Shown one piece after another: positions 11,636 to 62,656 of a DNA stretch of 64,000 bases. The notes beneath the pieces are model-generated. The model saw nothing but the letters and a program-made list of their open reading frames with translations. It did not search any database and had not been told where the DNA came from. The first letter of the stretch is position 1, and each line of letters begins with the position of its first letter. The DNA comes from Biscogniauxia marginata (lineage: Eukaryota; Ascomycota; Sordariomycetes; Xylariales; Xylariaceae), in NCBI GenBank assembly GCA_022695795.1, contig MU404173.1, positions 1 to 64,000 of the forward strand, given 5' to 3'. The position numbers and the translations under genes are program-made.

Positions 11636-14600
11636 TTAAAGGGGCCCTGAAGTCGATTTCTTGAGGCCGTCCACCTCCTTCATCAAGTTCGCAATACTGG
11701 CTAAAAAGTCTTGATCGCTGCTGGTCGACTGTGTGTCACCATCACCACTCCGAGCCCGTTTCCTATGGGCAGAGGCCTCCTTCCGATACGCGGACAAATC
11801 TTCATCCTCATCCTCGCCACGCTTCCGCTTCTGGGCCCCATCAATTATCGAGGGTGATCTGCTCTGCTGCAAGACGTCTATGGCTGATTGGAATGACATA
11901 TCGAGACTTCCTGGAGGTGATTGACTTCGACTCCCAGAGTCGACCGGTGGTAGGCCATAATCCCCTAGTCCAGGAAAACGTTTTCCCTCTTGCAACATAG
12001 GCAGTGCAAGTGATTCGTGAAGATACTCTCCGTTTGGCATCTGCACTAGCCCGTTGGCCTTTAAACGCCAATACGGATCGGTAACCTTTGACTGGGATTT
12101 CGAGACGCGGCTACTATTGAAACCGAGACTTGAGCGGTAACTGGAGCTGAAAGTCGAGTTACGTAAGCTACCAGTCGATCTAGACAGGGAGTCTCTGCCG
12201 GTGCCGTTTGATAGCGCCTTGAGCATGGCGGTTTTTGAGCCCTCTTTATAGGTCTTCGGTTCCGGAAACCTCTTTAATGGCAAGAGCCCACGTTTCCGTC
12301 GTCGTTGGTTTTCCGAGCGCAGTAGCATCTTTTCTGCCGGGAACATGCCCGATACAGATTCGTCCTTATCGTCCCGGGCAGCATGGCGAGCGGCGGCTCT
12401 CTCATCCCGGACGCCCCTTAACACGCCAGAAGCAAGTAATGCTTCTTCAACGCTATCCTCTCTCTCCTCTCGCCTTGACCGCGTTGATTCCCTCAATCTA
12501 GCGGTTTCTTCTATATTCCCTTGGGTTCTCTTTTGCATCAAATCCTTCGCCTCCTGGATAGCTCTCTCCTTTTCAAGTTTTGCTGCACGTTCGCGCTTTG
12601 CCACATTATCGGGCAACCTCCATTGTCGTGCTTTCTCTCTCTCCATCCGAATCCGCTTCACAATTCTTCGCTTGCGTGTGGTGTCGAGCCAGCGGTAGAA
12701 ATATGTAACCTTCAGACTATATTCCCGGAATTTGCGTGCTTCAGCCCAGGACCTTTCGTCTTCCTCCTTTCGTTGGCGTTCCTCTTCAAGTACCTGGAAG
12801 TTGTCCCAAGTATCTTGCAAAATATGTCCCATCATGAACTGTTCTAGCTGGTCCTCCATTAGGCCCTTGTCTGCACAAACAAACCAACGAGTGAAATCAC
12901 CCATAGGATCCGATTTCGTAATAGGTTTCGGGGTAGGGGGAGTCTGGTGAGAAAGTGATGATTCTGGAGTTGGACGTAACCTGTCCGACGAATCGCCCTT
13001 TGTAGTCGAGAGCGTCGACGATCCTTGGAAGAGAGGACTGAGGGTAGGCGGTGGGTAAATTTGTGGTTGAGATCTTTTAGACCCGTCACCTGAAAAAAGG
13101 AAACTAAGTCAGTAACAATTAACTGAAAAGATTTATTGCTGCTAGGGGCATTCGACACCAGTAGGCCACTAAGGCCTGTTGCATTGCAATGCATGAATAA
13201 TGAACCCAGGAATACGAAAGAAACAGATGGGCGTCGCTTTTATATAATGTAATGGAGGCTTGGAGAGGTGTCTTACCCGTCGGCAAAGTCTTTTCACTAC
13301 TAGAAACATCCCCATTGTGCGGTTTCTGGTATGCCGAAGAGGCAAATTGTTCATCGGTAGGCTTTGATTGACTCGCAGTGGCCGAAGGTGTTGACGAGCT
13401 AGGGAATTGGAACCCCGAGACTGTTGGCGTAGGTGTCGTCGAGAATACGGATTGTTGCGACCCGTCTTTGCCTAATGTATTTGATAAAGGCTTGGGTGCA
13501 AGTCCAGAGAATAGGGTGGCATTTGTATTGAGAGGGGCTGGTGCTGTATCATTTTTGGCGCTCTTGTCGCCTAAGAAACTAAACAACCCTGGTGCCGTGA
13601 TATTATTGTTTTGAACACTCGAAGGGTTCTCAACGTATGTATTATCACCGAAAGTGACTTTCTTCTTAGCACTCTGAGTAGGGGCGGGAAAAGGGGATTT
13701 TTCTAGCGGCTTCTGACCAGTCGTCTGATCTGTTATATCTGACCCTGACCCGCCTGAAAATACGCCAGACGGCTTCAGGCTAGTGCTGCTGTTTAAAGGA
13801 GGTTCGGTTGACGTGGAGGGCAATAAACTAGCGTTCTGAGATGGTGCTGGATTGCTAGGCTGAGAAAAGGTTGAAGGCGTGAGGTGTTGTTTGGTATCTG
13901 CCGTGTTGTTTCCAAGAGGAGTTGTTGTGACCGGAGGGCTAGACGGAGGGGTCCCGTCAACACCCTCTATATTAAACCTGGATGCCTGACCGTCGCTAGT
14001 CTCAAACGATGCATCACGGGTGTCGGTAACGAATAGGCTGTCTTCAGGGGTATTAACAGCAGAAGCTTCTTCACGAATCTCTTCATAGACGGTTTCGTGA
14101 ATAACATCTGGGAGAGAACGTCCAGAGCGTTTGCGTTCGACGATGTCTTGTGAGAATGAATGGGGTATTCGGGCATCGATGAATTGTTGGCGCGGATTAA
14201 CGAGGAGATACTGTTGGTCGCCTTCTCCGCTAAATTCGAAGCCATGTTTCTGAACAAAACCGATGGCTTCTTCCTCGGTGTCAAAACGCAGACGGTCCCT
14301 GAGAAAAGCTGGTGTGAGATCTTTCGGCCCATCCCTTGGTCTCGAATATGCCTTTCTTATGACTTGTAGCATCGACTTTCGGATGCTGTTGAAATGAATT
14401 TCGGCAAAGCAAGCCATGGTGTACGAGATTCTCGGCTGGGCCACGATGGAGAAGAACATTGATGCAACACTCAGCGCAAGTTCCGATGGAGCAAAGGGGA
14501 TTAGAGGGCCATGCAACCTCCAGGAGTTCTCCATAGCCTCTACCAAGCACATGGCAGTCCTGATTCCGTCGGACTTCCATAATCTAGTGCCCCAACCTTG

Positions 14601-16043
14601 AACAATCTCCTTCAGTTCAGGGTTGTGCGCATTGAAAACAACGTAGTAACCACGAAATTCAGCCTCATTCTGGCACTGTATGCCTTGTTGCGCACAGTCA
14701 TCGTAGAGTTCTTTTAAGGACATTAAAGTCTTTCCCAACTGCTCGATTTCTTGCTGCTCCGAGAAGTCGTCCGGGCCAAAGCCTTCCTGTGACAAAAGAT
14801 GAAGGGATGTTACGTGAAAGCGAGCGATTGTTTCGAGGCAGTATATTAAATCGTTCCTCTCGTCTGTCGTCATGGAGTACTTCTGTACGGAAAGATCGAT
14901 TCGGATTGCTCTTGTTCGGTCCCATAGAAAGCTATGCCTTGACGGTAACAAGTCGTCCGAAGGAATGAGATCATCGATCAGATAGTCCAAGGTTTTCCGC
15001 AAAGTAGCAAATGACCGTACGTCCATAGGCAAAGGGGCATCCTGGCCAGCTGCAGACCGAGCAAGACGCTTGACCATGAGCTGCGGCTTAGCCACGAGGT
15101 CACCAGCGTCGTCTGTCTCCTTTTCTAGAAGCTTGATATCGAGCTCGACGATGCGGGTAATCCTTTCCCATTCAGGACACATATCCTCCGAAATGCCCCG
15201 AAAGATGAGCGCTTTGTCTAGCGTGCGTTTCTCGTCTGGATCATCAATGAGGCCTGCGCGGATCAGGGATTTCCTGGCCTTTTCTCGATAGGCCTTATGT
15301 GACTCTCGTAACGACTCCACCGCTTGACGCTGCGCGTGACTTCCTGGATTAGCCGGCCACGGTGGAGGCTTGATACCGTCCCTTGCGAGTTGCTGATGGA
15401 TTTTGGCTGCCAAATCATGCGAACGTCCATTATGATTGGGCGATGGCTTCAAGCTACTCCAAGCGGTAGTAGGCTTGGTACCCCGGGATAGTTGAGGCCC
15501 CGAGCTAGATCGCTTAGAGGCAACCTTGCGATCTGGCGAGCTCCTCGAAAATTTCGATCTCCCCTGGAAGTTAGACTCGCTCCTCCTCTTGCCATTTGTT
15601 AGACCTTTGCTAGTATCGGTGCCCGACATCTGCGGCGACCCATTGTTCTGCTTCTTGGGCCATGCTGGTTGAACGAACTCGGCAACCTTCCTCTTGCTAT
15701 TTGGAGTAGAAGAGCTAGCCAAATTCGAGGATGGTGCTGAAAACGGCTTTGGTTTGAGAGCACTGGTATCAGGCGACGCTCGCTTGGGCCCATCTATTTT
15801 GTTATTGTTGCTAAAAGGGTTGAGGGGCTTTGCGGCATTCGATGGTTGACCAAAGGACGACGAAGCTGGTCGATTTTGACCGGAGTTGGTAGCGAGAAAA
15901 GGGTTCGGCTTGGCTCCAAAGGGGCCCGGGGGAGTTGCTTGCCCGTTCGGTTTAATATTAGAGAAAGGGTTGTTCGGCGGTTTAACGAACGGGTTGTTCG
16001 GCTGGGAGGGCGCTGGCTGGCCGAATGCTAGAGTGGTGGTCAA
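11636..16043 (-). CDS. SAC3: Sac3/GANP-family nuclear mRNA export factor
   Basis: Two exons, 16043-13277 and 13089-11636, join in phase 1 across a 187-bp intron (donor GTAAGA, acceptor TTTTCAG) to give 1406 residues. Residues 1-80 are rich in NPF and FGQP motifs, like FG-nucleoporin contact regions. The Sac3/GANP domain lies at about 285-620, opening with FRGISEDMCPEWERITRI and including a TPR/PCI-like helical stretch. A Ser/Thr/Pro-rich linker with dispersed FG-like motifs follows. Exon 2 adds a charged, probably coiled-coil region (about 960-1100) and a disordered tail. Sac3 is the scaffold of the TREX-2 complex at the nuclear pore, binding Thp1, Sem1, Sus1 and Cdc31 and coupling transcription to mRNA export. 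The basic, Arg/Glu-rich exon 2 segment is where a Cdc31/Sus1-binding helix would be expected, though I cannot pick it out with certainty. Confidence 0.92.
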
Positions 16044-19171: not shown

Positions 19172-20407
19172 CACTATACAGATATAACACATTTCAACAA
19201 GGTGTTCTCTTGAAGCACCATTCTCTCACATCAGCTCGGCAAATTAATTTACGTTTTTCCATGGCGTTTGGTTGCGATTGGATGCGAGACGCAGCGGATA
19301 AAAATTAACGATGGCAACAAGCCGCGACTACATCACCAACCAATTACTTTATAACGTGTATACGGCAAGTTTATGATCAAATCCTGTTTTCTGAAGTCAT
19401 CGTACAAAGGGGTTATTAACAAGGTGTGCTTCCTGGGTATTACATTGGAGCGGAGTTCACTTGCTATTGTTTAAGCAAGGTTGGGGATTGACATGGAACG
19501 CTATAGCATTAGAACGGCGACCTTTGGTCGTGAGGTTATCTAGGAGCGGACGTATATACCCAGATTTGTATCATACCTCTGTATATGTATGCTCAAGACA
19601 ATACTATGACATGTAATTTTTACTGAGATCTAGGTACATACCTATGGCTTGGAGAAAGGAGGTTGTGGTTGATATCTCGTAGCATGTCAGTCCTTGTATA
19701 TATCTGCTTATACATCCCTAATTCAGTATAAGTGGTTCAGCCTCAGACTAATCTAGTAGGTATGCTTTAGAGACCCCACCACAGCCTCTATGACATAGCT
19801 ACTATATGTGGACATTGTATATGGTATGTGTGAGCTGTACATCCTCCAGGGCTCGAAGCCCAAAAGTTGCCTCGGCATCTCCTCTCCGTAAACTAAGTAC
19901 TCCAGAAACCCCACCTTTATGGTGGCCAAGCTCCCCGGATTGGGGGATCAGGGGGCTTACACTGATAACGCCGTACATACAGACTTCAAATTGGTAGGTA
20001 TCGTGGAACTCACTGACTACTATGTTCTATCTTTGAATCAACTTTTTGGGTGTACCAATTTGGGACAGCACACTTATTCAAATCAGAGACCATCGAAGTC
20101 TGTATACATTATTTAGCTACACTTAGCAACCCTGCTCTAGCCCCCCATCGACGGCACACACAAGTCTCATAGGAAACTAAAAGGCTGATTTTAAATATTG
20201 GTCTAAAGAAGTTCCTCTCTACCGCCCGTGAAGGCGGTGTATAATCTAAGTTGAGACCTCCATTCACACATTGATTTACCTCCCACCCCCCATCGGGTAT
20301 CTCTCAACACCGCGCCCGTCCACGCCAACATTGAAGCGTGCACATACCATCATCAAGCCCCGACCTCCGACCCCGACCCCGACGTACCGGTGAAACCCCT
20401 AAGTATC
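19172..20407. other. Intergenic between hypothetical gene and nitronate monooxygenase
   Basis: Ordinary composition with only short ORFs. One copy of a CTAGGTACATACCTA-like motif lies near 19631. The final 150 bp before 20408 are C-rich and form the likely leader of the nitronate monooxygenase gene. Confidence 0.6.
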
Positions 20408-21638
20408 ATGGCACCGTCGGGACCGATAACCACGCCCCTGACGCAGCTCCTGGGGATATCGCACCCGATCATCCTAGCGGGCATGGCGCGGGTATCGGGC
20501 GGGGCCCTCGCGGCCGCGGTCTCCAACGCGGGCGGCCTGGGCGTGATCGGCGGGTTCATGTACACGTCGGACCAGCTGCGCTCGATCATCGCGGAGATGA
20601 AGGCGGCGCTGCGGTCGCCGGACCTGCCGTTCGGCGTGGACCTGGCGCTGCCGCAGCTGGGCGGCAGCGCGCGCCGGACCAACCACGACTACACGGGCGG
20701 CAAGCTCGACGAGCTCATCGACATCACCATCGAGTCCGGGGCGCGGCTGTTCGTCAGCGCCGTCGGCGTGCCGCCCAAGCACGTGATCGACCGGCTGCAC
20801 GCCGCCGGCATCCTGGTCATGAACATGGTCGGGCACCCGAGGCACGCGGCCAAGGCGCTCGACCTCGGCGTCGACATGGTGTGCGCGCAGGGCGGCGAGG
20901 GCGGCGGCCACACGGGCGACATCGCGAGCTCGGTGCTGATCCCCGCCGTCGCGGACGTGGCGCGCCGGTACCGGCCCGCGATGCTGGGGGGGCGGGCGGC
21001 GCTCGTCGTGGCCGCGGGCGGCATCTCGAACGGGCGCGGGCTCGCCGCGAGCCTCATGCAGGGCGCCGCGGGCGTGTGGGTCGGCACGCGCTTCGTGGCC
21101 TGCGAGGAGGCCAGCTGCAGCGACGAGCACAAGCGCAGCGTCGTCGCGTGCGGGCTCCAGGACACGGAGCGCACGCTCGTGCTCTCGGGCCGCCCGCTGC
21201 GCATGCGCACCAACGAGTACATCGCGAGGTGGCACGCGCGGCCGGAGCGCATCCGGGAGCTGTGCGACAAGGGCGTCGTGCCCATCGAGTGGGACTTTGA
21301 GCAGGGCAACGACGTCGACCCTCCGCAGTACGTATTTCAACAGTTCATTTTTATTTTCCCCTCTTCGTCTTGTCCTCGGGATCTAGAATTTCCCTGTCAA
21401 GCCAATTTGAGAGAATTTCGCTCCCCGAGACATGCTTTCAAATCTCGTTTTCTTGCCTAGAAGGGGTAATTTCTAACTCACATTTATAACCAGCCTCATG
21501 GGTCAGGTCGCCGGCGCCATCACCGAGGTCCAGCCCGCTGCGCGTATCGTATCCGATATGGTCGACGAGGCCGTCGCGATGCTGAAGCTGGGCGGCTCGT
21601 ATCTGAGTGACGGCGACGCTAAGAGCAGCAAGTTGTAA
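20408..21638 (+). CDS. Nitronate monooxygenase (2-nitropropane dioxygenase family)
   Basis: Two exons, 20408-21327 and 21494-21638, joined across a 166-bp intron (donor GTACGT, acceptor AACCAG), encode 354 residues. The in-frame GTG at 20390 is not used. The protein is an FMN-dependent TIM barrel of the NMO/NPD family. Visible marks are GGLGVIGG at 42-49, the phosphate-binding and catalytic-His stretch AQGGEGGGHTG at 160-170 (H168 the likely base), VAAGGISNGRG at 201-211 and VGTRF at 225-229. The intron junction creates the C-terminal HLMGQVAGAI motif, supporting the splice. The enzyme oxidises alkyl nitronates such as propionate-3-nitronate to aldehyde and nitrite, so a detoxification role is likely. 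The exons are far more GC-rich than all neighbours, with nearly every third base G or C. That could mean transfer or strong codon selection. Confidence 0.9.
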
Positions 21639-23939: not shown

Positions 23940-24728
23940 CTATTTGTCATTGCGGCTTTCTCTAAAAACCGCCGTCGACACGGCAGGCTTCTTTTCCCAT
24001 TGTGTTGGTAGCACTTGAGTCAGTCCGTCGAGCTCCTCCCGCGCAGCCTGCATCCGCTTCTTCATGGACTCGGGTATGCTAGCCGGTTCCCCTATCACCT
24101 GAGCCTCGTCCAGAAGCTTTATCTGCTCCTCCAGCTCCGCGATGACTTCCTCTTGCGACGCATCTTCGATAAGCTGGGACAGTGGGCCCAGTTCGACTTT
24201 GTCAGTGTCGTGTACGAAGATCATCTTCTGTAGTGAATTCAGGTCCACCTTCTTCCACCGCAGTACCCTCCATGCGCCCTCGGGTACTACCGCGAGTTGC
24301 TGTACCTTGTTCAGGTCTTGTGTAGACGCCCATAATGATGAGCACTCGGGCTTTAGTTCTTCATGGCCGAAAAATATGGTGTCTCGGCTGAAGTCGACGT
24401 ATATCCGGGCTTCTTTGTTCCCAACTCCGAAGGAAAGTGTGTAGTGTTTCAAAGCTTCATATCGAGCTTCTGAGTTGACGTGTAGAAGGGCAGGGATCTG
24501 TGTGGTGGACTGCCATGTTTTCTGGTTGTCACGTGTCTGTATTATTGCTTCGTCCAGTGACTTCGGTGTTTGTTGGTTTCTTGTAAAAGGAGACTTGACA
24601 ATAACAGTTCTTGCTTCAGGCATGGCATGTTGCCAGATCTTGATACGTAATTCGGGTGGAAGCTCATTGAACTTAGTAAAGGTGGTAAGCCCTTGGGGCT
24701 TAGTGAATAGTGAAGCGTTTTGTTCCAT
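23940..24728 (-). CDS. 2EXR-domain protein (F-box-like fungal family)
   Basis: An intact single-exon gene with a true ATG at 24728, 262 residues. Residues 15-35 carry the family's opening block, FNELPPELRIKIWQHAMPEAR, and at about 83-95 the second block, LLHVNSEARYEALKHY; both are hallmarks of the 2EXR domain. A C-terminal helix-rich segment (about 185-240) contains a short Glu-rich likely coiled coil. The family is hugely expanded in filamentous ascomycetes and its function is unknown; an F-box-like adaptor role has been suggested from the LPPELR block. Two degraded relatives lie downstream (28151-29009 and, less surely, 41838-42670), so this is the surviving member in the window. Confidence 0.85.
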   Translation of the reverse strand: MEQNASLFTKPQGLTTFTKFNELPPELRIKIWQHAMPEARTVIVKSPFTRNQQTPKSLDEAIIQTRDNQKTWQSTTQIPALLHVNSEARYEALKHYTLSFGVGNKEARIYVDFSRDTIFFGHEELKPECSSLWASTQDLNKVQQLAVVPEGAWRVLRWKKVDLNSLQKMIFVHDTDKVELGPLSQLIEDASQEEVIAELEEQIKLLDEAQVIGEPASIPESMKKRMQAAREELDGLTQVLPTQWEKKPAVSTAVFRESRNDK

Positions 24729-32668: not shown

Positions 32669-35600
32669 TCAAGAGTCAAAAATCGCCCCGAACGCCGGAA
32701 CACCTCGTGCCTCAAGCCGATAGACGACCTGCTGTGTGACCTTTTTATTAGAGATGATGCAGACCGCCTCAGCATCGCTCTCCTTCAACATCTGGTATGC
32801 CATAGCAGTGAGATCAGGTTTGCCCTGAGTTCTTGTATTCCAGATGATCGCCTCCGGATCTGCCCGGAGCACATCATCCACGATATCCTGCCCGAACGTT
32901 TCTTTCGGGTGAGGCGTCGACCATAGAATTCGGGCTGGGACACGGCCCTCTAAAATCACAGCCAGGCATGGCCCAATTCCAGATCCAGTGGCGACGAGTA
33001 CCACTTTCTTAAATAGCGGCGCGATGGTAAGAACACCCGAGGCGAGAGCACCGCGAGTCCAAAGCCTCGTTGGCTCGCCATTAATGGTCTTCCTAGTCCA
33101 ATCTCCAGCATTCGATACGATGATCGAAAAGCCCTTCGCGCCTGGCTTGGCAAAGGCTGCGAAAGCGTGCCATTCACGCATGGGTTTATCAGAGATGCGG
33201 ACACCCTTGCCCGCGATCGGAGTCTCAAAATCAAAATGAAGCCTGATTGCGTGTTTTGAAAGTGGCTCAGGCCTGACAGTGACCTTGCGGAGACGAATCC
33301 AAGGGAGCGCAATGCTGAGCGTGATCAAACTCAGGAGGTAGACTGCCGGCGTTTGAGCCAGAGCAGTCGAGAGTGGGACGTCTGGAGCCCGAAGCGAATC
33401 GGTAGCGACGATCAGGTGTGCCCACACGAGGGCGGTGGCAGTCCAGCCGGCGAAACGATGAGTCCATTCGAATTGGTCATGCATTTTGACGCGGACATCC
33501 GGGTGCGCCATTCCAACGATGGCTGCCAAGAGGGCGAGGACGAGGTAACTGAGAACCACGGTTCCGACATTGATGCGGTACTCCTTGTTGCCGTTCACAA
33601 AGTTGACCGTAACAGCAATCGTGAAGACTAGCCACCACATCGATGCTGAGACGGCAGCACCTGAATGTATGCCTCCGATATGATACACACGGGCACAGTG
33701 ACGCCTGATACTTAAAGGCGCCCACGTCGGGACCCGAGTCGCGAGCCAGAAGCAAAAATTGATAACATAGTCTTGTCGCATGGCCACGGCGACTAGAAGG
33801 TTGCTTGCAACTGCGGTCGCAAGGCTGGGTATCGGCAAGCTACCCTTGTGCCAAGATTGCCACCAGACAATGGCAAATGCGATGAGGTTTCCGAAGAAAA
33901 TGAGGGAGAAGAACCTCCGGTACAAGGAGAAGAAACGATGACGGAGCCATCTCTCTCCATGGAAACCGTTCTTCTCGGGGAGTTTGTATTTCACTTCCTC
34001 GTCTTCCGAGGGCGCATAATATTGCAGTTCGCTCTCTGACACCTTCGACAGACCTTTCTCTGGATCAGAATATGTTGATACGGCGATGGTTGACGGGCTG
34101 CTTGACAGGGTTTCGAAACTGGGAGACTCAAGGAGCGCCTTTTCAGCTTCGGCTAGCGCTCTCAGTTTCCGCTTGTCAACCTTGCCGTTGGCTGTGAGAG
34201 GGACTTCGGACAAAAATAACCACCGAGTCGGTACTCCATAATATGGCATTTTCTGTCCCACAACATTTCGGATGTCATCCGAGTTGAGCTGATGGGGTGC
34301 TGAATAGAACCCCCATAGGTTGTCGCCTACTTTTAGGGCACAGGCCTTGGTCACGGATGGTACGCCTTCAATTGCAGCCGATACACCATCCAGTTCGACA
34401 CGAAAACCCTGCTATGGTTAGGTAAATTTATCTCGGTGTGTTGAATGGAAGCATTTGCGTGCTCACCTTAATCTTCACTTGGTCGTCCTTGCGGCCCAGT
34501 GGTTCTATGCATCCATCTTCAGTCCAGCGACCAAGATCTCCTGTGTTGAACATCATGGTGCTACTTGTGGTTAGTGCCATATCTTGCTTAAACATGATAG
34601 GTTCTCTAATTCTCTCACCCGTCTTTCGTGAACTTGTCTGGCTTGAATCTTGAGGCAGTCAGATCTGGCAAGTTGATATAGCCGGCCGAGACACCCACTC
34701 CGCCAGCCCACATCACACCCGGCTTCCCAATGCCAACAGGCTTCTCATCGTCATCCAGCAAGTACACATTGGTATTCGGCAATGGCCGTCCAATCGTCAA
34801 TGGAATCCCCGGCTTGTGTAAGTGCGCTGTGTTGAGGACACTGATCTCAGTTGGGCCACAGGCATTCCAAAAGTTGGCAGCTGCTGCCCATTCGTCTGCC
34901 AGCGCAACTGGACATGGTTCGCCACCGACAACTACCGTTTTGATGTTGGGATAGCTTGCTTGCGCATACTTGCCAAGGATAGTGGGCGTTGCGATAACTG
35001 TATCTACGCGCTTGAGGACGTCATCCCAGTCGCCGCTTCGAATGTGCAATGTCCCTCCGTTCATCAAAGTCGCAAGGATTTCCCACACAGCTAGCTTTGC
35101 GTCAGTACGCTGTTATCAACAATGGGGTAGACATGATTTATGCAAGCATTCAGGCTGCGGGCTTTATGGTAACAACATACCCATATCGAACGAGATATTC
35201 AGGAGCTGGGCCACATTGGTCCCAACACTTATTTTTAAATTTGCTGGCTCGACAAGCAAGTTGTTGGTCACACCTCTATGCCTCACATCAACTCCTTTCG
35301 GCTTCCCTGTGGTCCCCGATGTATATATGATGTATGCTCCGTAGCTCGAGTCGATAGCTACGTTCGGACGGGCCTCGTTACCTTCCCAGGCATCGCTGGA
35401 TTCATTGTCAAGTTCTATCACTTCAACCCCAAGCCCAACAGCATGTCGTTCGACTTTGGTACGAAACTTTTGAAGGGATAGGGTAAAGCCTGAGGAGGTA
35501 TCGTGGAAGATATGTGCCAACGCGTCATCGGTAACGACGCCACCATCCAGGGGTACATATTGTGCACCGGCTTTCAGCACAGCAAATATTCCCACTGTGA

Positions 35601-35883
35601 GCTCGATGGATCGGGATACGACGAGGCAAACTCGGTCTCCGGGACGAAGTCCTCGTTTGATGAGCTTGTTGCTAAGTACGTTGGCCCGCCGCTCTAGCTC
35701 TTGATATGTGATCGTCGTGCCATCGTGATGCCGTACCGCGGTGACATGGGGATGGTGATCAGCGATATGCTCGAAAGCCTGGTGAACCAAGCTGAAGGGT
35801 ATATTTATGCGTGGACCTCTGCCAAACTTGTTGAAGAGCTCCTGTTCTTCTTGAGAAAGGTTGTCTAGAGAATGGAAAGACAT
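32669..35883 (-). CDS. Adenylation domain fused to a ferric-reductase-like membrane flavoprotein
   Basis: Four exons (35883-35181, 35090-34619, 34560-34467, 34408-32669) join in frame to 1002 residues. Residues 1-510 are an NRPS-type AMP-binding domain: A3 YTSGTTGKPKG at 187-197, A5 NACGPTE at 310-316, A7 TGDLGR at 398-403, and the A10 lysine in NGKVDKRKL (K499). No carrier-protein LGG.S motif or reductase/condensation domain follows. Instead residues about 580-790 hold about six hydrophobic helices and 800-1002 a ferredoxin-reductase-like module (HAIRLHFDF near the FAD site, VLVATGSGIGP as nucleotide loop). The protein should activate a carboxylate with ATP and sit in an internal or plasma membrane. 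The architecture resembles fungal proteins annotated as TmpA-like membrane flavoproteins, A. nidulans TmpA being linked to asexual development. Substrate unknown. No dedicated biosynthetic neighbours are seen. Confidence 0.85.
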
Positions 35884-42670: not shown

Positions 42671-44182
42671 ATATGGATAAATGAATGGAGAGAAGTACGT
42701 GGGAGGATCCTTGAATAGGGTAAACGGTAAGAAGACAAGTCGAGTTGTCGACATGTGGTGTGTGGTGTGCGCAAGCTCTGTATTTTAAGTAAGCGCTGAA
42801 TTGATGTATCTAGTCACAAGGCGACCAACTGCTCGATGATACGTCATAAATACTTACTCTATAGGTTAAGGCATGCAAACATAGGCTTGAAATATTTTCT
42901 ATTACTGTAGGCAATTTGGAATCTGTTACGGCGACGCAGATGGTATATAAGGCAATGCTTGATTTTTCTGGTGTGTTAACGAAAATAATAAACGTGAGGA
43001 AAGAAGGAAATCTCTAACAATCCTGATACCATATATTGCGCATGGGACAATAGGGGAAATGGAGCGAATATTTTACGAGCCGTGCCGTCACATATAAGTG
43101 GATTCACTTTTATCATCTTGTGACCACCAATTGAAATATTAACGTCTTTTGCTTTTTATATATACTTGATTACTCGATACTATGAGGGTCTTTCGTGCCG
43201 AAAAAGGGATGCTATAAAGTAACAATATCAAGTATCGATCGACACCCCTCAATAATGATATGGAGGATGAATTCTCATTCACATTCAGCTAAACCACTAG
43301 TCACGAAAGTGCACTTCGCTATAGGTCGTACGATATTATATTGCCTGAAAAGCGCCCATATATATAAGCAGCTCTCGCTGCAAGCGATTCTCTCTCTTCC
43401 ACTTTTCTTGCTATGAACAGGTGATTCCCGCTCTGAAATATATTTGCTAACAATTAACCTGACTTACTGTAGCTTAGCTGGCAACCACTAAATAGTTCTG
43501 CGACCGAATAGTCTAGCTGACAAGTAGCTTAACTAGGTAGGTAGCCAGCAGTTTAGTTAATACACACTACTAGCAAGTGAAACGATAGGAAGTTGCCTTC
43601 GTTGTTAGATAGTGTAGCTAGCAAATATCCTAGCTTTTCAGTTTCTATACGTGGTACTGTTGCCCACAGAGTTTCGAAGCAGCGTTGACAACACCCTGAA
43701 GTAGTATAGGCACCCAGTAAATGATACAGATTTTATAGGTAGCAGCTCATAAGCAGGTCAGCTAGTAAACATGAATATCAGTGTAGTCACAATTATATTT
43801 TATACAAGACAGCTTTTTATAAACCTGCGCAAGGGTATTTCTCTGTGATTACCTAATCATCACTCTCTTTAGAGGACCGTCATCAGCTTCGTGTCTAGGA
43901 CAGGCAATATCCTATCGATTATGTACACTATAGGACATAACCTGGTTAGAGCTGTTCGAGTTACCAGGTACATTACTTTTATTGGTGCATCGAATACGAC
44001 CCACACTCGACTGAACAGGGGGGGCTGATCCACGCTCGCCTGTAGTGAATAAAGACGGTAGTCAGTCAGCCACCGACGTCCCGCATCTCTTGAGTCATGC
44101 ATACCTTCATTTCCGTTCTCTGGCCAAAGTTGTATCGGCTTCGGCATATTTGCATATCACCTCGTTTATTACTACCGTCACT
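42671..44182. other. Intergenic upstream of the NmrA-like gene
   Basis: Short ORFs only. Around 43440-43640 many short TAGCTA/AGCTAG words and a TAGGTAGGTAG occur, giving weak self-similarity but no clear repeat unit. No RNA gene identified. Confidence 0.55.
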
Positions 44183-45100
44183 ATGACCTTCAAGAATGTC
44201 GCTCTAGTAGGCGCTAACGGTAACCTGGGGACAGAGGTTCTCCGAGCCCTCGTGTCGGCGGGGGCCTTCTCGTTGACCGTAGTGAGACGGCAATCCTCAA
44301 GCTCAGCCCCAGCTTTCGAGAGAGAGGCAATTGTTCGCATCGTCACCGTCGACGACGAACTCTCGCTCGAGAGTTTGAAGGCAGCGTTCCAAGACCAAGA
44401 CGCAGTCATAACCTGCTTTCCCCTCCGGGACCCTTCACAGCATCTACGTATCGCCGAAGCTGCCGCTGCCGCTGGAGTTCGGCGTGTGATACCCGCCGAC
44501 TACGGCAGCTGCGATTCGAGTAGTGCGCGAGCGCAAGAGCTGGTGCCGCTGTTCAAGAACAAAACAGCCGTGCGCGGGAGGCTAAACGAGCTCGCTGCTT
44601 CTTCTGCTAGTGGGTTCTCATGGACGAGCATCGTGTGCGGCCATTTCTTCGACTGGGGCCTGCGAGAGAACTTCTTGCATTTCGACCTCAAAACCAAGAA
44701 GGCAGACATTTTGGATGACGGCAGGTACAAGAGCTCGACCTCGACGCTGGGCCGCGTTGCCGAGGCCGTAGTCAGGGTGTTGGAATTGGGGGAGGAGACC
44801 CGGAACAAGGTGATCTTCATTCAAAGCTTCTGTGTCTCTCAATTGGACGTGCTTGCCGCCCTGGAACGTGCCACCGGGTCGAAATGGGATGCCACGTACT
44901 TGGATTCAGAGGCATTCATCAAGGAGAAGAAGGCTAAGGCTGACGCGGGCGACCGCGCGGCTATTGAGGACTTGGTGTTTGCGCTGGGGGCTGTGGACGG
45001 GAATTGGGAGACGAGGGAGGGATTTGCAATGGACCTCCTAGGATTAAAGAATGAGGACCTCGACGAGGTGGTTAAACGAGTCGTGGATTCAGATGTGTAA
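44183..45100 (+). CDS. NmrA-like / isoflavone-reductase-like NAD(P)H oxidoreductase
   Basis: A single-exon gene. The long frame opens upstream at 44045, but the ATG at 44183 places the dinucleotide-binding motif at the usual N-terminal position, giving 305 residues. Residues 5-18 read NVALVGANGNLGTE, the G..G..G Rossmann loop of atypical short-chain dehydrogenases; VVRRQSSS at about 34-41 supplies basic residues expected for NADPH. A GVRRVIPADYGSC segment near 103-115 matches the fungal NmrA/PCBER family's region around VKRFIPSEFG. Family members are NAD(P)H-dependent reductases or redox sensors; in fungi many sit in secondary-metabolism or stress loci (CipA-type). No cluster partners are evident here. 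The downstream aspartic protease is convergent. Confidence 0.85.
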   Translation: MTFKNVALVGANGNLGTEVLRALVSAGAFSLTVVRRQSSSSAPAFEREAIVRIVTVDDELSLESLKAAFQDQDAVITCFPLRDPSQHLRIAEAAAAAGVRRVIPADYGSCDSSSARAQELVPLFKNKTAVRGRLNELAASSASGFSWTSIVCGHFFDWGLRENFLHFDLKTKKADILDDGRYKSSTSTLGRVAEAVVRVLELGEETRNKVIFIQSFCVSQLDVLAALERATGSKWDATYLDSEAFIKEKKAKADAGDRAAIEDLVFALGAVDGNWETREGFAMDLLGLKNEDLDEVVKRVVDSDV

Positions 45101-50817: not shown

Positions 50818-53800
50818 TCAAAACGTCGGTGCGACCTTCTCCTCCTCGACTAACCCTCTAAGCTTAAACGTGCGCAGCGAATTCGTGCTCTGCGCCGACG
50901 AGTGGCCCCTAGCGCGGCCCCGACCCGCCGACGCGCCACTACTGCTGTTTCCCATACTAGACGCAGATCTCATGCGCACGGGGCCCGCGGGCGCGGACCC
51001 CATCGAGGGGTTCGGGCTGGCGGGCGGGTGGTCACGGCGCCGCGTGTGGAGCTGGCCCATCATGGAGCCGAGCGCGCCGTGGTGGGCGGCGTTCACCGGG
51101 TGCTGTATCGGCGGCGTGGGCGGCGTGCCGATGACGGGATAGTAGGAGGAGGGGTTGTGGCCGAGGGGTGGCGACCGGGTGCTCGAGTTGGAGCGGCTCG
51201 TGAGGGAGTTCTGGCGGGACCGTGAGCGCGTCCTGGCTTGGAGTTTGCTCAGTAGCATCTCGGCGGATGTGGGCACGGGACCTGCATGTGTGGGTCGTGT
51301 GGGCGAGCGGCTGGATCCACGACTGGAGGGCGGCGTAGGGAGGGTGCCGGGGATGTTGGCGTCTTTACCGGACGAGGCCATAGGCATGGTCCCGTCGAAT
51401 TGTGGCGGCGTGAGACCGAGTTGTGCCATGCCTTGGGTTGCCTTTTGCAACTCCTCGAGGCTCATGCCCCCTGCGGGCATCTTGCTTAACCTCCGGATCG
51501 CTTTATTGTTCTTTTCCACGAAGGTGCTCATGGCTCTCAATGCGCTAGCATTCTCTCGAGTTGCTACAGCGCTGGCGTCTCCCGAACTTCTGCCTCGACC
51601 TTGATGCACCGCGTTGAGAGTCTGCGGTGGTGTTGGCGGCCGCTGGATTTGTGGTTGTGCTGAACCAAGAGTCGCCTGTACCTGCGACATTACCCTGTCG
51701 AAATCGATGTTCTGGTTCGGGTTCGTTCGAGATATATAGTAGGAAGACTGTCCCGCATTCAGAATATCCGTCTCCGCCTTGTGGGCTAGGACGAAGAGAC
51801 TTCCGTCACGGACACATCGTCGCACGAGCGCCCATCGGGTTCTAGCAGGGTTCCGCTCGAGCTCAGGACGGTATACGGAGCACCGAGCCAGTTGAGCGTA
51901 GAACACACCAAGTCGTCGAGCCATACGCTCTAGCACCTGAAGGAGGAACGTTGAGAGGGCAGTGAGGCGGGTGGCTTCGAAGTCGGGATCTTGCATGCTA
52001 TCCGGCGAGCCGTAAGCTGTGGCGATACTATCGAACGCATCCATGCCATTGCAGGCTTCCTGCCGAAGGTCTTCGAGCAGCTCTATATCAAGCTCTACAC
52101 TCTTTGAAGCATATGCAAAAACACCGCGCTCTTGGAACCGCAAGGCGCTTCCTGCATGACGTACGAGTTGGCCCACAAGTGCAACTTCTTTCGTACATGC
52201 CGCAGCGTCAGGACTAGTCTTCGATCGGGCGACTGCCCCCAAAATATCTGGAAGCTGGGTGGGAGATCCTGGTCCACTAGTATTGGCAAGACAGAAGGAC
52301 AGTTTGAGTACGAGCTCTTGAAGCTTTGGTCCAAATAGGGCAGCGAAGCCCCCCTGGAGAAGACGGCTCTGGTAATTGTAGAAAGTACGGACAGCAATGC
52401 TGTTCGGCAAATTCTCGCGCAGCCAGATGTTGGTGATGCCAGCCGGGTCGTGAGAGGAGGACGTTTCCATCGAGGCTCCCATGATCTCGTACATCTCAAA
52501 CTGGTGAGCCACTAATGTTTCGACGGTAGAGCGTAGGTAGGCGGCCCAGAGGTCGTATAATGACGATATCTCGCCATCTGAACCCTGGTAGTCAGGCTTC
52601 GGGGTTAGATGTCCAACGAAATACTTCGTCAGAAGGCTTGATACCTCTGGATTATTCGTGTGGGCCAAGTTGTCAAATGACTTAGTACAATCAACACCGG
52701 CGTTTGACTTGATAATCAATGTCCCACCTGGGTGCATAGGACAGAAGTCCGTTACGTCGTATACGCTCCCGTGGACTCCAATCCACATCCTTGAGTCTGG
52801 CCGGTGGCCGGTGTGTAAGGCAAGTTGAGACAGGGGGATAGTTGGCAGGTTGCATGGGAGAGGTTTTGGTGTCATGAAGACGTCCAGCATGAAGCGACGC
52901 TCTGCGAAGGCCTTATTCACGATCATATCAACAGTTTCCATACTCGCCGTGCAGTGCGTATAAACCGCCTTCCGGATTCCTTTCATTACGGAGTCGAAAA
53001 CCGAGACAGAACCACAGACGTAGAGATAACCTCCCAGGCCACCCTGCTTCTTGGACATCACCAGCTCGGAGATGGTCGCACCCTGCTCAAGGATCAGGGT
53101 ATCGATATATCGAGGAGGAGTGGGCTTCTCGACTAGGTCGTGATGGTGAGGATCATACGCGAGGCCACGCGAGTCTCTGGAAAATGCTACGTGAACTTCC
53201 ATAAAGTTCGCGTTGACATACTCGCGTAGCTCATCTTCGAAGCAGAACTTCTCGCGGGATTGTACGCCGAGATACAGAAGATTTTTGCCTCCCGACAAGC
53301 CGCTCGTGGTAAGACGAGATTGCCAAAAGCTTCGAAATGGTGCAATACCACTACCGCCTGCGAAGAATGCGCAAGGTGCCATTGGGTCAAGGGGTAGGTG
53401 GAAAGCCGCTGGCCGTGAGACGCCAATAAGAACTTCATCATCTAAGGATACATCATCAGATGGGGGAGACGGGTTGAGGAAACCACTTGAGACACCGGCG
53501 CGAGATATATCTTCTCCCTTGGAAAAGGTAGAACATAGCTTGTATTCGGCACGGGAGACCGCTAGGTCAACGGTATTGGGCAACAACTCATCGGTATAGC
53601 TGGCGATTGAGTATGTACGAGGCACCTCTAGTGGAATGAGATCAGCCAACCAGGAAATATTATTAAGGTCGAATGCCTTATCCCAAATATGGGTGGGAGT
53701 ATCCATTATAGCGTCTTGCAGCAGGTCTCCGAGAGAGCCTCGCACTGGCCATTCGTCCGTAGCTAAGACCTGAAGTACTGTGTTGGATGAGGCATGAAGT

Positions 53801-56152
53801 AGGCTGTGGACCTTCAAAGCAAGTTCTTTGGTGATCGGCGCTAGATGCCCACGGCGAAGAATATCGACTACTGTCAATTTTCGTGGCGCTGCTCGTCGTA
53901 CAGACGCGAGATGGAGCTCAAAGCGAGGCCATATCCCGGTCACTTCGACGGTGTCCTCCAAGCGTTCTTCCAAGCCAAGTGCGGCAGCAACTTTGGCACA
54001 TTCTTCCCAGCTGTTTAGGGGCATTACCGCCAGCCGATCACCAGGCATGAATGTTATACCCGTATCTTGAATATCCAGCGTAACCAAGGCAATGGAGCGA
54101 GACGGATCCGAGTCCACGGCTGATCGATTCAAGACTCGGGAGACATATCGGCATTCCTCGAAGGTACCGCGCATTTGATGGGGTTCGACAGCCAAAGCGC
54201 CACCTATAGCGTTAATGGGTTAGCACGGGGCTTGCAATAGTATCATATTTTAGATATTAGCTTACGATATGGCTCGAGACGTTCTTTCATCGCATCGGAG
54301 AATTGTTTATGTGTCTCCTCCCACGGGCGAGTTGCATCGGCAGCGCCAGAGGCACCATTCGTCTCCGTGCGGCCTGTTTTGGCAGCCACTTCGAGGATCC
54401 CAAAGACCTTATATCTGTGTACGCCCATGAAACCTCGTTCACCTGTATAAGCCTCCACGATGCCGTCTAGGACGCCCATGAGCCGAGGATCTCCAGATTG
54501 CTCGACAAACTCGGGAATACGATAATGATATTCGATAGCTGCGATAAAAGCTCGAAGATTAGAGGGCAGCCACGCCCTTAGATGTACACCCTCAACGCCA
54601 AGAAAAGAGGTATACCTATTGAATAGTCAGTTTTAGATCTTCAAACAGTCCCTTCGTATCAGTAGTATTGGGCAAAAATATTAAACTCCAAAATGTTTGG
54701 TATAAGGATGTGAGATTCTCTAAACTTACTTTTTGCGCCCCAAAAACGCGTCCATCACTAGGAAGGGAGGAAATTGCAGGCCAGAAGAAGCCGGGCAGCG
54801 TTTTGAAAGAGGGGCAGAAAACTTCCCCCATCGTACCCATTGCTGGACTGGCACGTAATTCTCGCCAGAGTTTGGATTTGGCGAGATAGAGTGGAAGGCG
54901 TTGGGCATACGTTCGAGGATTTCTTTGAGTCGAATCATTTCGCGAAGAAGACCTTCCACGTTCCTGTTCATCACATGTTCCTGGCAAGCAGCAATGGCAT
55001 CAGGCCCGTGTTGGAAGGATGCTGCGAAAAGTCAATAAACATATAATCAACCCAGACTTATCAGTGAGATTTACCTGATGTATCGGCACAACCCTTCAGG
55101 AATGTCACCTCTGCTCTCTCACCGAACATAGGCCATCGGAGTTCTGTATTGTCGAAGCGGGCAAGATAGGGGTAAGTGGATGTGACATCTTTTATCTTAA
55201 GGTTGAATGATGACTGGTCGACAAATGAGAGATGCGGAAGTGCCCGTCCCATACGGCGCGAAATCTGGTAATATGGAAGGGCGATACTGCTTGGAATACC
55301 CACCAGCTCTTCGCCCAGCTCGTCGCCCACCATGGAGCAGTTCAGTTTAAGCTTTTGGGAGCGGTTCGTGGTAATACCATCGTTGCCATCATGTTTGTCT
55401 TCGAAACGGTAGATAGAGCACAGCATACCCAAAACCACCACGGCTGCCCATAATGCTTGGTCAGTGATGACATCTTCAGTCCCTTCGATGATGGGCAGAG
55501 CAGCGACGGACTCGCGGACACGCCCCCGAGCAACACATCCGGGCATTCGTTCAGCTAGGTCAGCCCATATGCGGCCTGGTGTTCTTGCTAGAGCACCCAC
55601 GGATTCCTCGTAATCTGGTGGACAGAACCCATGCTCTACGCTGAGGTACCCATCACGCCAACCAGTTTGGGGACCGATTTCCTCCGCTCTTATCATTACT
55701 TGCCTAGCGGGTGCCCCCAGAGCGACTGCAAGTAGGTCTGCCTCATTAACATTAAATGAATCTACTTCAGCCTGTGTCTTTGCGGCATCGATTTCCTTTA
55801 CAGATGGGATATTGGCGTATAGAAGCTGATTGATGGACTTCCGCTCTCTGTTCAGATTATTTATGTCAGTGATATGTGCGTAACCTACTTGAGAGTATTT
55901 CGTACCTCATGCGGAGCCATTCATCAACATCGACGCCTCGGGGTATCTGTTTATGTTAGTCGATTTCGAGGAACCCGTGAGTTTTGAACATACATCGAAC
56001 GCAGCATGAAGATCACCTGGCTGGCAGAACCCAGAAAAGGAGCACCCGCGAGGACCCATACGGCTGTTGCTTCGTTTCGAGACCGCCGCGCCAGCTGGGC
56101 ATATTCCTCTCCCTCCAACAGAGCCTGATACCGGACAAGATCGTTCAGACAT
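50818..56152 (-). CDS. IDO-like dioxygenase / NADPH-FAD reductase / cytochrome b5 fusion
   Basis: Six exons (56152-55994, 55946-55906, 55847-55075, 55021-54730, 54615-54266, 54203-50818) join in frame to 1666 residues. About 138-530 aligns by eye with indoleamine 2,3-dioxygenase: EHGF at 138, a helical core, PASSG at 401-405 where IDO has its GGSAGQS loop, and FMGVHRYKVFGIL with H488 as proximal haem ligand. Residues 545-960 form a P450-reductase-type FAD/NADPH module with connecting domain: RTYSIAS 735-741, GVSSGFLN 776-783, GGSGIAPF 822-829, AFSR with S881/R882 at the 2'-phosphate site, YLYVCG near 932. There is no flavodoxin domain. Cytochrome b5 covers about 994-1072 (HPGG H1030, H1054). 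A helical region and Ser/Pro/Arg-rich tail follow. Predicted to oxidise an indole such as tryptophan using internally delivered electrons. Substrate is inferred. Confidence 0.85.
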
Positions 56153-60690: not shown

Positions 60691-62253
60691 TCATATGTTT
60701 GAGGTTTTGTTCTTCTTTTGTGCCGGAGCGCTGCTGTTGCTGTCAGCCTTGCTGCTGCTGCCCGGCCTCTTCCGCCTCTTACCTTCGAGCATCTCCCGCT
60801 TCTCCTGTTTCCGCGTCTCCTTGTTTAAGCTACCGATAACCTTACTTTCCTTGCCGCAGGGCCATGTTTCATACGCCGCTGCTTCTTGCTCCTCTGACCA
60901 CTCCTGTGGCAGAATGGCGAAGACGAGGTATGAGGTGTGGGTCTTGAGCTCTGGCTCGGTGCGGTGGATGAGCTTTCCAAGCATCCACGGCTTCACCGAT
61001 GATGCATCTTCGTCTCCATCCGTCTCTACCTCGAGGGCATTATCCCCGTGGGAAAGCTCATACTCATCTGCCATCTCTTCGTCGTCGTCGTCACCATCCA
61101 TATCGGCCCGAGAAGATCTACATTGGTTTTTGTGAAAATTTTTGAATCGCCGTTCCACTTCTTTCAATCTTGCAACTGCCTCCTCAACATTGCCTGCAGC
61201 CTGGTTTGCACCGCGTTCCATGGGCATGTTTAATCCAACCCTCTCACGCATGACATTGATTCTTCGATGCAATACCTCGACCATCTCAATATCCACCCAC
61301 CCTAGCCGGCGCATCGTCTCGATCGTCTTGGTGACCTGTTCAATGCAAGGGGAGAAGGTACATATATATATGCTCCGATCTGCTCGTAAAGGCGATTTCC
61401 AATCAGATTCTGTCCCCTTAAGCGGATCTAGGCCGCTACTCGCCAATTGAGAAGGGGATGGTCTCCTGCGGGATAAATGCGGCAGAGCTCGCCACGGTGC
61501 TGGTAGGTCGAGGAAGATGCAGTCAGCCTCCGGGCTCTGGCCATCCACTAAGAAACCATCATTATAAACGTCTCGGTGTGATATCTGGACGATTCCATCT
61601 AAAAGATGTGACTTGATTTCCTCCTGCATCTTTTCGTAGCGGTCCTCGTTGAATTCGAAGCTCCAGACTTTTCCTCTCTTCTCTTCTGTAGCTTTAGGGT
61701 AGCCATTGTAGACCGCCCTTGCTGCAGCATGCGTAAAACTACCGCTTCCAGCGCCTGCTTCTATTATCTGCATACCAGGTCGAGCGCGAATTCGATGTAG
61801 GATATAGCTGTAGTCCGGGGTATACACAACCTGGGTTCGATGTGGTAAACTTGTCGTCCATGCTTCCGGCGTAGGCGGGAGGATGTGTATGAAACCGGTT
61901 GCGGCAGTCTTCACATCCTTCGCAGGGCCTGTGCTAGAGGCATCTTCAGCCGTGCCATCGTCTAACGCCTCCTCCGCTGCAACATTCTCGAGCTTGCGCT
62001 TTCTCCCTCTAGAACCAGTATCTACAATGGACGCGCGGATCTGCGAGCCCCAAGGCTTGTCGAGTAGTGTCGAGTGCGGGAATGAGCCGAATCGTGTGTT
62101 GATTACGGCGCCTTCTTCATAGCCATTCACGGCACCGGCACTCCCTTCAAGGTAGACGGGTTGGATGTTGTCGCGGGACAGATGGACAATGGAGAGTGTA
62201 TTTGGCGCGGTTAAAGGGCCAGGATCAAAAAAGGGCGAGATCTTGGACGTCAT
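60691..62253 (-). CDS. TRM61: tRNA (adenine58-N1)-methyltransferase catalytic subunit Trm61
   Basis: A single-exon gene; the true ATG is at 62253 (MTSKISPFFDPGPL), as the frame upstream has only a TTG. It encodes 520 residues. The protein carries a TrmI/Gcd14 methyltransferase domain: GFIHILPPTPEAWT at about 120-133 with the family's HILPPTPE motif, the SAM-binding EAGAGSGSFTHAAA at 165-178, FEFNEDRYEKM as motif II, and DCIFLDLPAPW as the catalytic DLP motif. Lys/Arg-rich and acidic insertions (about 80-115 and 395-430) and a basic C-terminal tail, probably nuclear-targeting, make it longer than yeast Trm61 (383 residues). With Trm6 it forms the m1A58 enzyme for tRNAs including initiator tRNA. 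It is divergent from the cysteinyl-tRNA synthetase, with 403 bp between start codons. Confidence 0.93.
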   Translation of the reverse strand: MTSKISPFFDPGPLTAPNTLSIVHLSRDNIQPVYLEGSAGAVNGYEEGAVINTRFGSFPHSTLLDKPWGSQIRASIVDTGSRGRKRKLENVAAEEALDDGTAEDASSTGPAKDVKTAATGFIHILPPTPEAWTTSLPHRTQVVYTPDYSYILHRIRARPGMQIIEAGAGSGSFTHAAARAVYNGYPKATEEKRGKVWSFEFNEDRYEKMQEEIKSHLLDGIVQISHRDVYNDGFLVDGQSPEADCIFLDLPAPWRALPHLSRRRPSPSQLASSGLDPLKGTESDWKSPLRADRSIYICTFSPCIEQVTKTIETMRRLGWVDIEMVEVLHRRINVMRERVGLNMPMERGANQAAGNVEEAVARLKEVERRFKNFHKNQCRSSRADMDGDDDDEEMADEYELSHGDNALEVETDGDEDASSVKPWMLGKLIHRTEPELKTHTSYLVFAILPQEWSEEQEAAAYETWPCGKESKVIGSLNKETRKQEKREMLEGKRRKRPGSSSKADSNSSAPAQKKNKTSNI

Positions 62254-62656
62254 GTTGGTAGTATCAATGCTCGGTCGGGGTCCTCCCACCGAAATTTCCC
62301 TCTCCAACTATCGTTTGGAACTTTGAAGGGGGGTTGATAACATAATTCGGGGGGAAATTTAGGGAAATTTTCAGGCGAGGCTACCACTAAACGAGACGCT
62401 AGGTAATGGCGGGGAATGGAGATCTTTGTGGCGCCCGATCGCGACAAGAGTGGCTGACCTCTGGAGGGGTAGGTATCAAGGTGGGGCTTCAAGGGAGTTA
62501 GTTAGGTAATCCCAATTAATTTATTTTGGAATGCCAAATGGTGTCAGTGTCTGACTCAAAATCCCATCTTCCTTCCCGTGACTGCTACGTGTCACCTCGC
62601 GGCCTTCTAAAGCTTCCCTCTCCCTCTATCCCTTCCTCTCCCGTCGCCTCGAATTG
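62254..62656. promoter_or_regulatory. Bidirectional promoter of TRM61 and cysteinyl-tRNA synthetase
   Basis: The 403 bp between the two divergent start codons must hold both promoters. A long C/T tract at 62613-62642 lies just before the synthetase ATG. No specific factor site is claimed. Confidence 0.5.

Follow-up and report, generated by a model that had tools for sequence, protein, structure and literature searches.

The first 64,000 nucleotides of contig MU404173.1 of Biscogniauxia marginata (assembly GCA_022695795.1; this whole stretch is the window) carry on the minus strand a gene encoding one chain in which a domain resembling indoleamine 2,3-dioxygenase (IDO) is followed by an NADPH- and flavin adenine dinucleotide (FAD)-type reductase and a cytochrome b5 domain. 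The coding sequence of 5001 bases is divided by five introns of 47, 58, 53, 114 and 62 bases, all GT..AG, and the translation of its six exons is letter for letter the database protein P0001 (Biscogniauxia marginata; Xylariales; 1666 aa). The start and first exon are backed by the same N-terminal reading in relatives (60 N-termini listed of 120), and these conserved N-termini ruled out an alternative first-exon frame and donor. An earlier note on this DNA had proposed a single six-exon frame of 1666 residues, which the identity to P0001 and the conserved N-termini bear out. The Pfam search and the first search for relatives used a translation of 1654 residues, the first 41 of which differ; adding 12 to its numbers gives those of P0001. 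The gene and its parts are:

50818..56152, minus: whole gene, join 55994-56152, 55906-55946, 55075-55847, 54730-55021, 54266-54615, 50818-54203; 1666 aa
55997..56152, minus: residues 1-52, N-terminal Cys-Pro segment reading SCPVSGS...CPAG...GPRGCSF, which may be a haem-regulatory or metal-binding motif
54184..55928, minus: IDO-fold domain, residues about 60-545, split by introns 2-5
54417..54419, minus: codon CAC of His488, candidate proximal haem ligand (conservation and model)
53539..54147, minus: FAD_binding_1 domain, residues 558-760, RTYSIAS motif (Pfam)
53197..53364, minus: NAD_binding_1 domain, residues 819-874 matched (Pfam); presumed further NADPH-site residues S880, R881 and C935 downstream
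52606..52806, minus: cytochrome b5 domain, residues 1005-1071 (Pfam)
52732-52734 and 52660-52662, minus: b5 haem ligands H1029 and H1053, respectively (codons checked)
51769..52572, minus: C-terminal helical domain, residues about 1083-1350, conserved and all-helical, after b5
50821..51741, minus: Pro/Ser/Arg-rich tail, residues 1360-1666, poorly conserved

The joining in one chain of an IDO-fold domain, a reductase of the cytochrome P450 reductase (CPR)/nitric oxide synthase (NOS) type and a b5 domain is supported by Pfam. All four profiles named in the earlier note were matched, each above its curated score: IDO (PF01231; E 1.2e-11, 44.5 bits against a gathering score of 26), FAD_binding_1 (E 1.1e-11), NAD_binding_1 (E 4.1e-7) and Cyt-b5 (PF00173; E 1.1e-15, 57.8 bits against 23.7). 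These E-values and the conservation across fungi exclude a chance origin. A flavodoxin/flavin mononucleotide (FMN) domain (PF00258) gave no Pfam match at E<=1 and does not figure in the domain annotation of the relatives listed, and neither an NOS oxygenase nor a globin domain was matched by Pfam in the fusion protein.

Conservation was read from an alignment of 186 of the 313 proteins retrieved, 1380-1760 aa long. The previously described P450-reductase-like FAD/NADPH module is upheld by its two Pfam matches and by near-invariant cofactor residues, S737 in the FAD_binding_1 domain being kept in 184 proteins and S880, R881 and C935, which we take from CPR and NOS to be NADPH-site residues, in 185 each. 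Both axial histidines expected of PF00173, HPGG included, are present in the b5 domain (H1029 in 182/186, H1053 in 185/186); the domain and its two histidines had been recognised correctly, though their numbers had been given as H1030 and H1054. In a search of the whole chain against solved structures, the best 60 of 175 matches were headed by NOS reductase domains (7.3e-18); sulfite reductase flavoprotein, P450 reductase and cytochrome b5 came next. Proteins of the fusion family are already in public databases as 'sulfite reductase' or 'nitric-oxide synthase', names which these reductase matches can explain.

Haem-regulatory motifs are built around Cys-Pro, and the N-terminus of the fusion possibly has a haem-sensing role. 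At least two CP[VAIMS] motifs occur within the first 75 residues in 124 of 193 relatives (at least 1380 aa) and a single one in 17, compared with at least two in 1 of 3681 windows elsewhere. The C6 column of the 186-protein alignment holds Cys in 133 and a gap in 50. Such N-termini are conserved in Ascomycota and Basidiomycota, while a chytrid model, P0285, keeps GPRGCAF with no Cys-Pro upstream of it. At the other end of the chain, residues 1068-1350 were modelled with a predicted local distance difference test score (pLDDT) of 77 and a predicted template modelling score (pTM) of 0.73; the helical domain found no confident match in the PDB, and the tail beyond it is probably disordered.

The IDO-like domain

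The IDO-like blocks of the earlier note are confirmed by the Pfam match and by a predicted structure showing the IDO fold over the whole domain, and PF01231 was matched at E<=0.01 in all nine diverse family members. The Pfam match spans only profile positions 8-228 of 412. His488 falls outside it, so its assignment as proximal ligand, made in the same note, rests on conservation and predicted fold: the residue is present and lies within a helix (model residue 405, helix 401-419), and its column is His in 184/186, the exceptions being P0119 (a deletion) and P0274 (a Rhizoctonia model, Arg), and in 108/108 of a closer set (108 of 120 relatives, 1500-1720 aa). It stands in the chain region expected from IDO1 H346, yet the sequence alignments to IDO1 end just short of it. 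We conclude that the IDO fold and a candidate haem ligand are retained in the fusion family.

The tryptophan site, in contrast, has probably been remodelled, judging from the aligned columns. The position of IDO1 Ser167, a distal-pocket residue, aligns with the C320 column, which is C, M or V in 104, 52 and 30 of the 186 proteins; Tyr126 aligns mostly with Phe or Gln (135 and 47), and Phe163 is kept as F316 in 182. For the IDO1 substrate contacts F226, F227 and R231, the profile alignments offered no counterpart, only unrelated residues or gaps at low HMMER confidence. Placing the invariant F367 and the adjacent H368 by eye on F226-F227 still left no Arg at R231, and columns 366-377 are not mainly Arg. 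The suggestion that tryptophan is the substrate is weakened by the S167 column and by the missing F226/F227/R231 counterparts in this low-confidence stretch; a different indole, the other option of the earlier note, may still be the substrate.

Elsewhere in the same genome (G000), at L001, L002 and L003 on contigs C49, C53 and C43, are two genes with strong IDO matches and a divergent IDO-like open reading frame (ORF). The divergent ORF reaches 77.8 bits over profile positions 110-339 only, and the one in-frame stop of the second strong match is perhaps an intron. Aligned with IDO2, the stand-alone IDO at L001 retains the F-Y..I-R stretch and an HxxxVT proximal His.

Distribution and ancestry in fungi

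A survey of fungal genomes, which the earlier note had proposed, found the same architecture to be widespread from chytrids to mushrooms and moulds, a breadth that it had not foreseen. All four domains were counted by eye in 115 of the 120 best of 321 matches and in 110 of the 120 best of 311 in a second, overlapping list. The named rows among the matches listed are fungi; no separate search covered animals, plants or other eukaryotes, and the prokaryote scans were insensitive. Many of these rows are Ascomycota; there are also Agaricomycetes, such as Volvariella, Rhizoctonia, Serendipita, Mycena and Marasmius, as well as the two Chytridiomycota Gaertneriomyces and Cladochytrium. Over the IDO-like domain, the two chytrid proteins share 52 and 54 percent identity with the B. 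marginata protein.

Separate trees were built for the IDO and reductase parts (185 sequences each) and for the b5 plus C-terminal part (186), with rooting on the chytrids chosen by the analyst. An identical 137-member clade appears in all three with a support of 1.0 each, and the 16 labelled basidiomycetes cluster with nothing besides P0272 and/or P0274, Rhizoctonia proteins that are unlabelled in the trees (supports 0.96, 0.99 and 0.88). The simplest reading of these trees would be one fusion predating the split of these phyla and then inherited as a unit; alternatively, the fusion may have been transferred horizontally at an early stage. Among individual models, some of P0271, P0272 and P0274 from Rhizoctonia solani lack reductase or b5 Pfam entries, which like the Arg of P0274 at the H488 column may stem from model or sequence errors, and P0133 of Didymella keratinophila (700 aa) has the IDO-like part directly on the b5 and helical part without the reductase, perhaps an annotation artefact.

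Electron route and possible function

The fusion shares with the IDO family (human IDO1/IDO2; fungal IDO alpha, beta, gamma/BNA2; PF01231) the predicted fold, the profile match and a candidate proximal His. It differs in that the C-terminal half of the domain lies beyond the Pfam match, several tryptophan-contact positions are changed or have no identifiable counterpart, and a reductase and b5 are attached; it is also distant from the other IDO genes of its genome, the family hidden Markov model (HMM) scoring 1.2 bits or less on the three ORFs. In CYP102/BM3, CYP505 and NOS, too, a haem oxygenase domain precedes a FAD_binding_1 and NAD_binding_1 reductase within one chain; unlike these, the fusion has an IDO-type haem domain, no FMN domain, and a cytochrome b5 after the reductase. 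Fungal CBR-b5 fusions such as ZtCBR2 likewise unite b5 with a pyridine-nucleotide FAD reductase, but in those of PMC4557397 the b5 sits at the N-terminus of a CBR-type reductase, whereas the present fusion has PF00175 as its NAD part and runs in the order IDO-fold domain, reductase, b5.

From the domain order, the cofactor residues, the predicted IDO fold and the wide conservation, the fusion is best read, at a probability of roughly 0.6, as a self-sufficient, NADPH-driven haem oxygenase of IDO fold that receives electrons through b5 and probably acts on a substrate other than tryptophan. NADPH would reduce the FAD of the CPR/NOS-type reductase, which has no FMN domain; cytochrome b5 would take the place of that domain as a single-electron relay and reduce a haem held by His488; and the reduced haem would bind O2 and oxidise a small molecule, which is probably something other than conventionally bound L-tryptophan. 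The route from NADPH through FAD and b5 to the IDO haem can reasonably be inferred; that the IDO domain carries haem, is catalytic and acts on a substrate other than tryptophan is likewise an inference. The electrons may either prime a dioxygenase or feed each turnover of a monooxygenase. The preference for an oxygenase with another substrate stems from the tethering of the reductase since deep in fungal evolution and from the seemingly altered tryptophan contacts. PMC4191572 describes b5 as having been suggested to reduce IDO physiologically, in a debate on the cellular reductant of its haem that began with superoxide, and reports that IDO homologues of very low catalytic activity have been retained through evolution and that, in a b5 assay, mouse IDO2 was more active and human IDO1 less so.

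Several points weigh against this proposal. According to PMC4191572, methylene blue supported higher activity of human IDO1 than b5 did, and the b5 of the fusion could serve another partner. The IDO-domain model is of modest confidence (pLDDT 63, pTM 0.60), the Pfam and PDB sequence matches stop before H488, and the H488 column has one relative with Arg and one with a deletion. Alignment of the family by hhalign with the two stand-alone IDOs of the same genome is weak (probability 4.4, E 0.0094), and together with the low HMM scores this means that the relation to IDO rests on the human IDO matches, Pfam and the fold. It is also uncertain that the tryptophan site has been lost, since residues 226-231 of IDO1 align with low confidence, and the nearby conserved R388 (173/186) and R399 (184/186) could replace the function of R231. 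Moreover, IDO and tryptophan 2,3-dioxygenase require electrons for priming only, and a pure dioxygenase therefore hardly needs a tethered reductase. A bolder form of the oxygenase reading, an ancient fungal family of BM3-like haem monooxygenases with the IDO scaffold in place of P450 and b5 in place of the FMN domain, which would spend NADPH on each turnover of a non-tryptophan substrate and be switched by a haem-sensing Cys-Pro segment, is conceivable, though doubtful.

Among the other explanations, a self-primed tryptophan or indole 2,3-dioxygenase, whose reductase and b5 would only maintain ferrous haem and whose product would be N-formylkynurenine or a ring-opened indole, has the predicted fold, the candidate proximal His, the suggested role of b5 as IDO reductant and the conserved F316 in its favour, and Arg388 and Arg399 could bind the carboxylate. 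It is nonetheless unlikely, given the C/M/V and F/Q columns at S167 and Y126, the lack of counterparts to F226, F227 and R231 or of a mainly Arg column in 366-377 (a stretch aligned with low confidence), and the two other strong IDO matches in the genome, which cover profile positions 2-411 and 4-411, the second with its in-frame stop. A redox or gas sensor, in which the IDO-like domain would receive haem or NO/O2, the reductase and b5 would set the redox state and the N-terminus, helical domain and tail would relay the signal, would suit the Cys-Pro N-terminus, the helical domain without confident fold match, the long tail and the active-site positions unlike IDO1; strongly conserved NADPH and FAD sites suggest turnover, however, and Pfam recognises no output domain, which makes a sensor improbable. 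Least probable of all is a nitric oxide dioxygenase or other reactive-nitrogen enzyme wired like flavohaemoglobin: such an enzyme would agree with database names like 'nitric-oxide synthase, salivary gland', with the NOS reductase domains as best solved-structure matches and with the presence of both haem and an NADPH reductase in a single chain, but the reductase alone can account for those names, and the oxygenase part is IDO-fold, Pfam recognising neither an NOS oxygenase nor a globin domain. According to PMC4948021, 'NOS-like' genes of N. crassa, which may or may not include members of the fusion family, had no clear effect on NO.

Literature searches found no description of the fusion, though papers using other names or behind subscription may have been missed; within that reach, the earlier statement that no characterised enzyme of this architecture is known stands. 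The family points to a widely conserved candidate fungal oxygenase, labelled in databases as sulfite reductase or nitric-oxide synthase and with no characterisation found in those searches. With reductase, b5 and IDO-fold domain apparently wired by evolution into one chain, it offers a single protein for testing the electron path.

Neighbouring genes

Five further ORFs of the window, which show no sign of a shared pathway with the fusion gene, are:

60691-62307, minus: tRNA methyltransferase, GCD14-type
44045-45100, plus: NmrA-like
23940-24728, minus: 2EXR
20390-21460, plus: nitronate monooxygenase
13119-16043, minus: SAC3/GANP

At 32669-35883, also on the minus strand, an AMP-binding adenylation ORF precedes a second ORF that contains hydrophobic stretches and has no Pfam match at E<=0.001, and the pair may be one split gene resembling a non-ribosomal peptide synthetase (NRPS-like).
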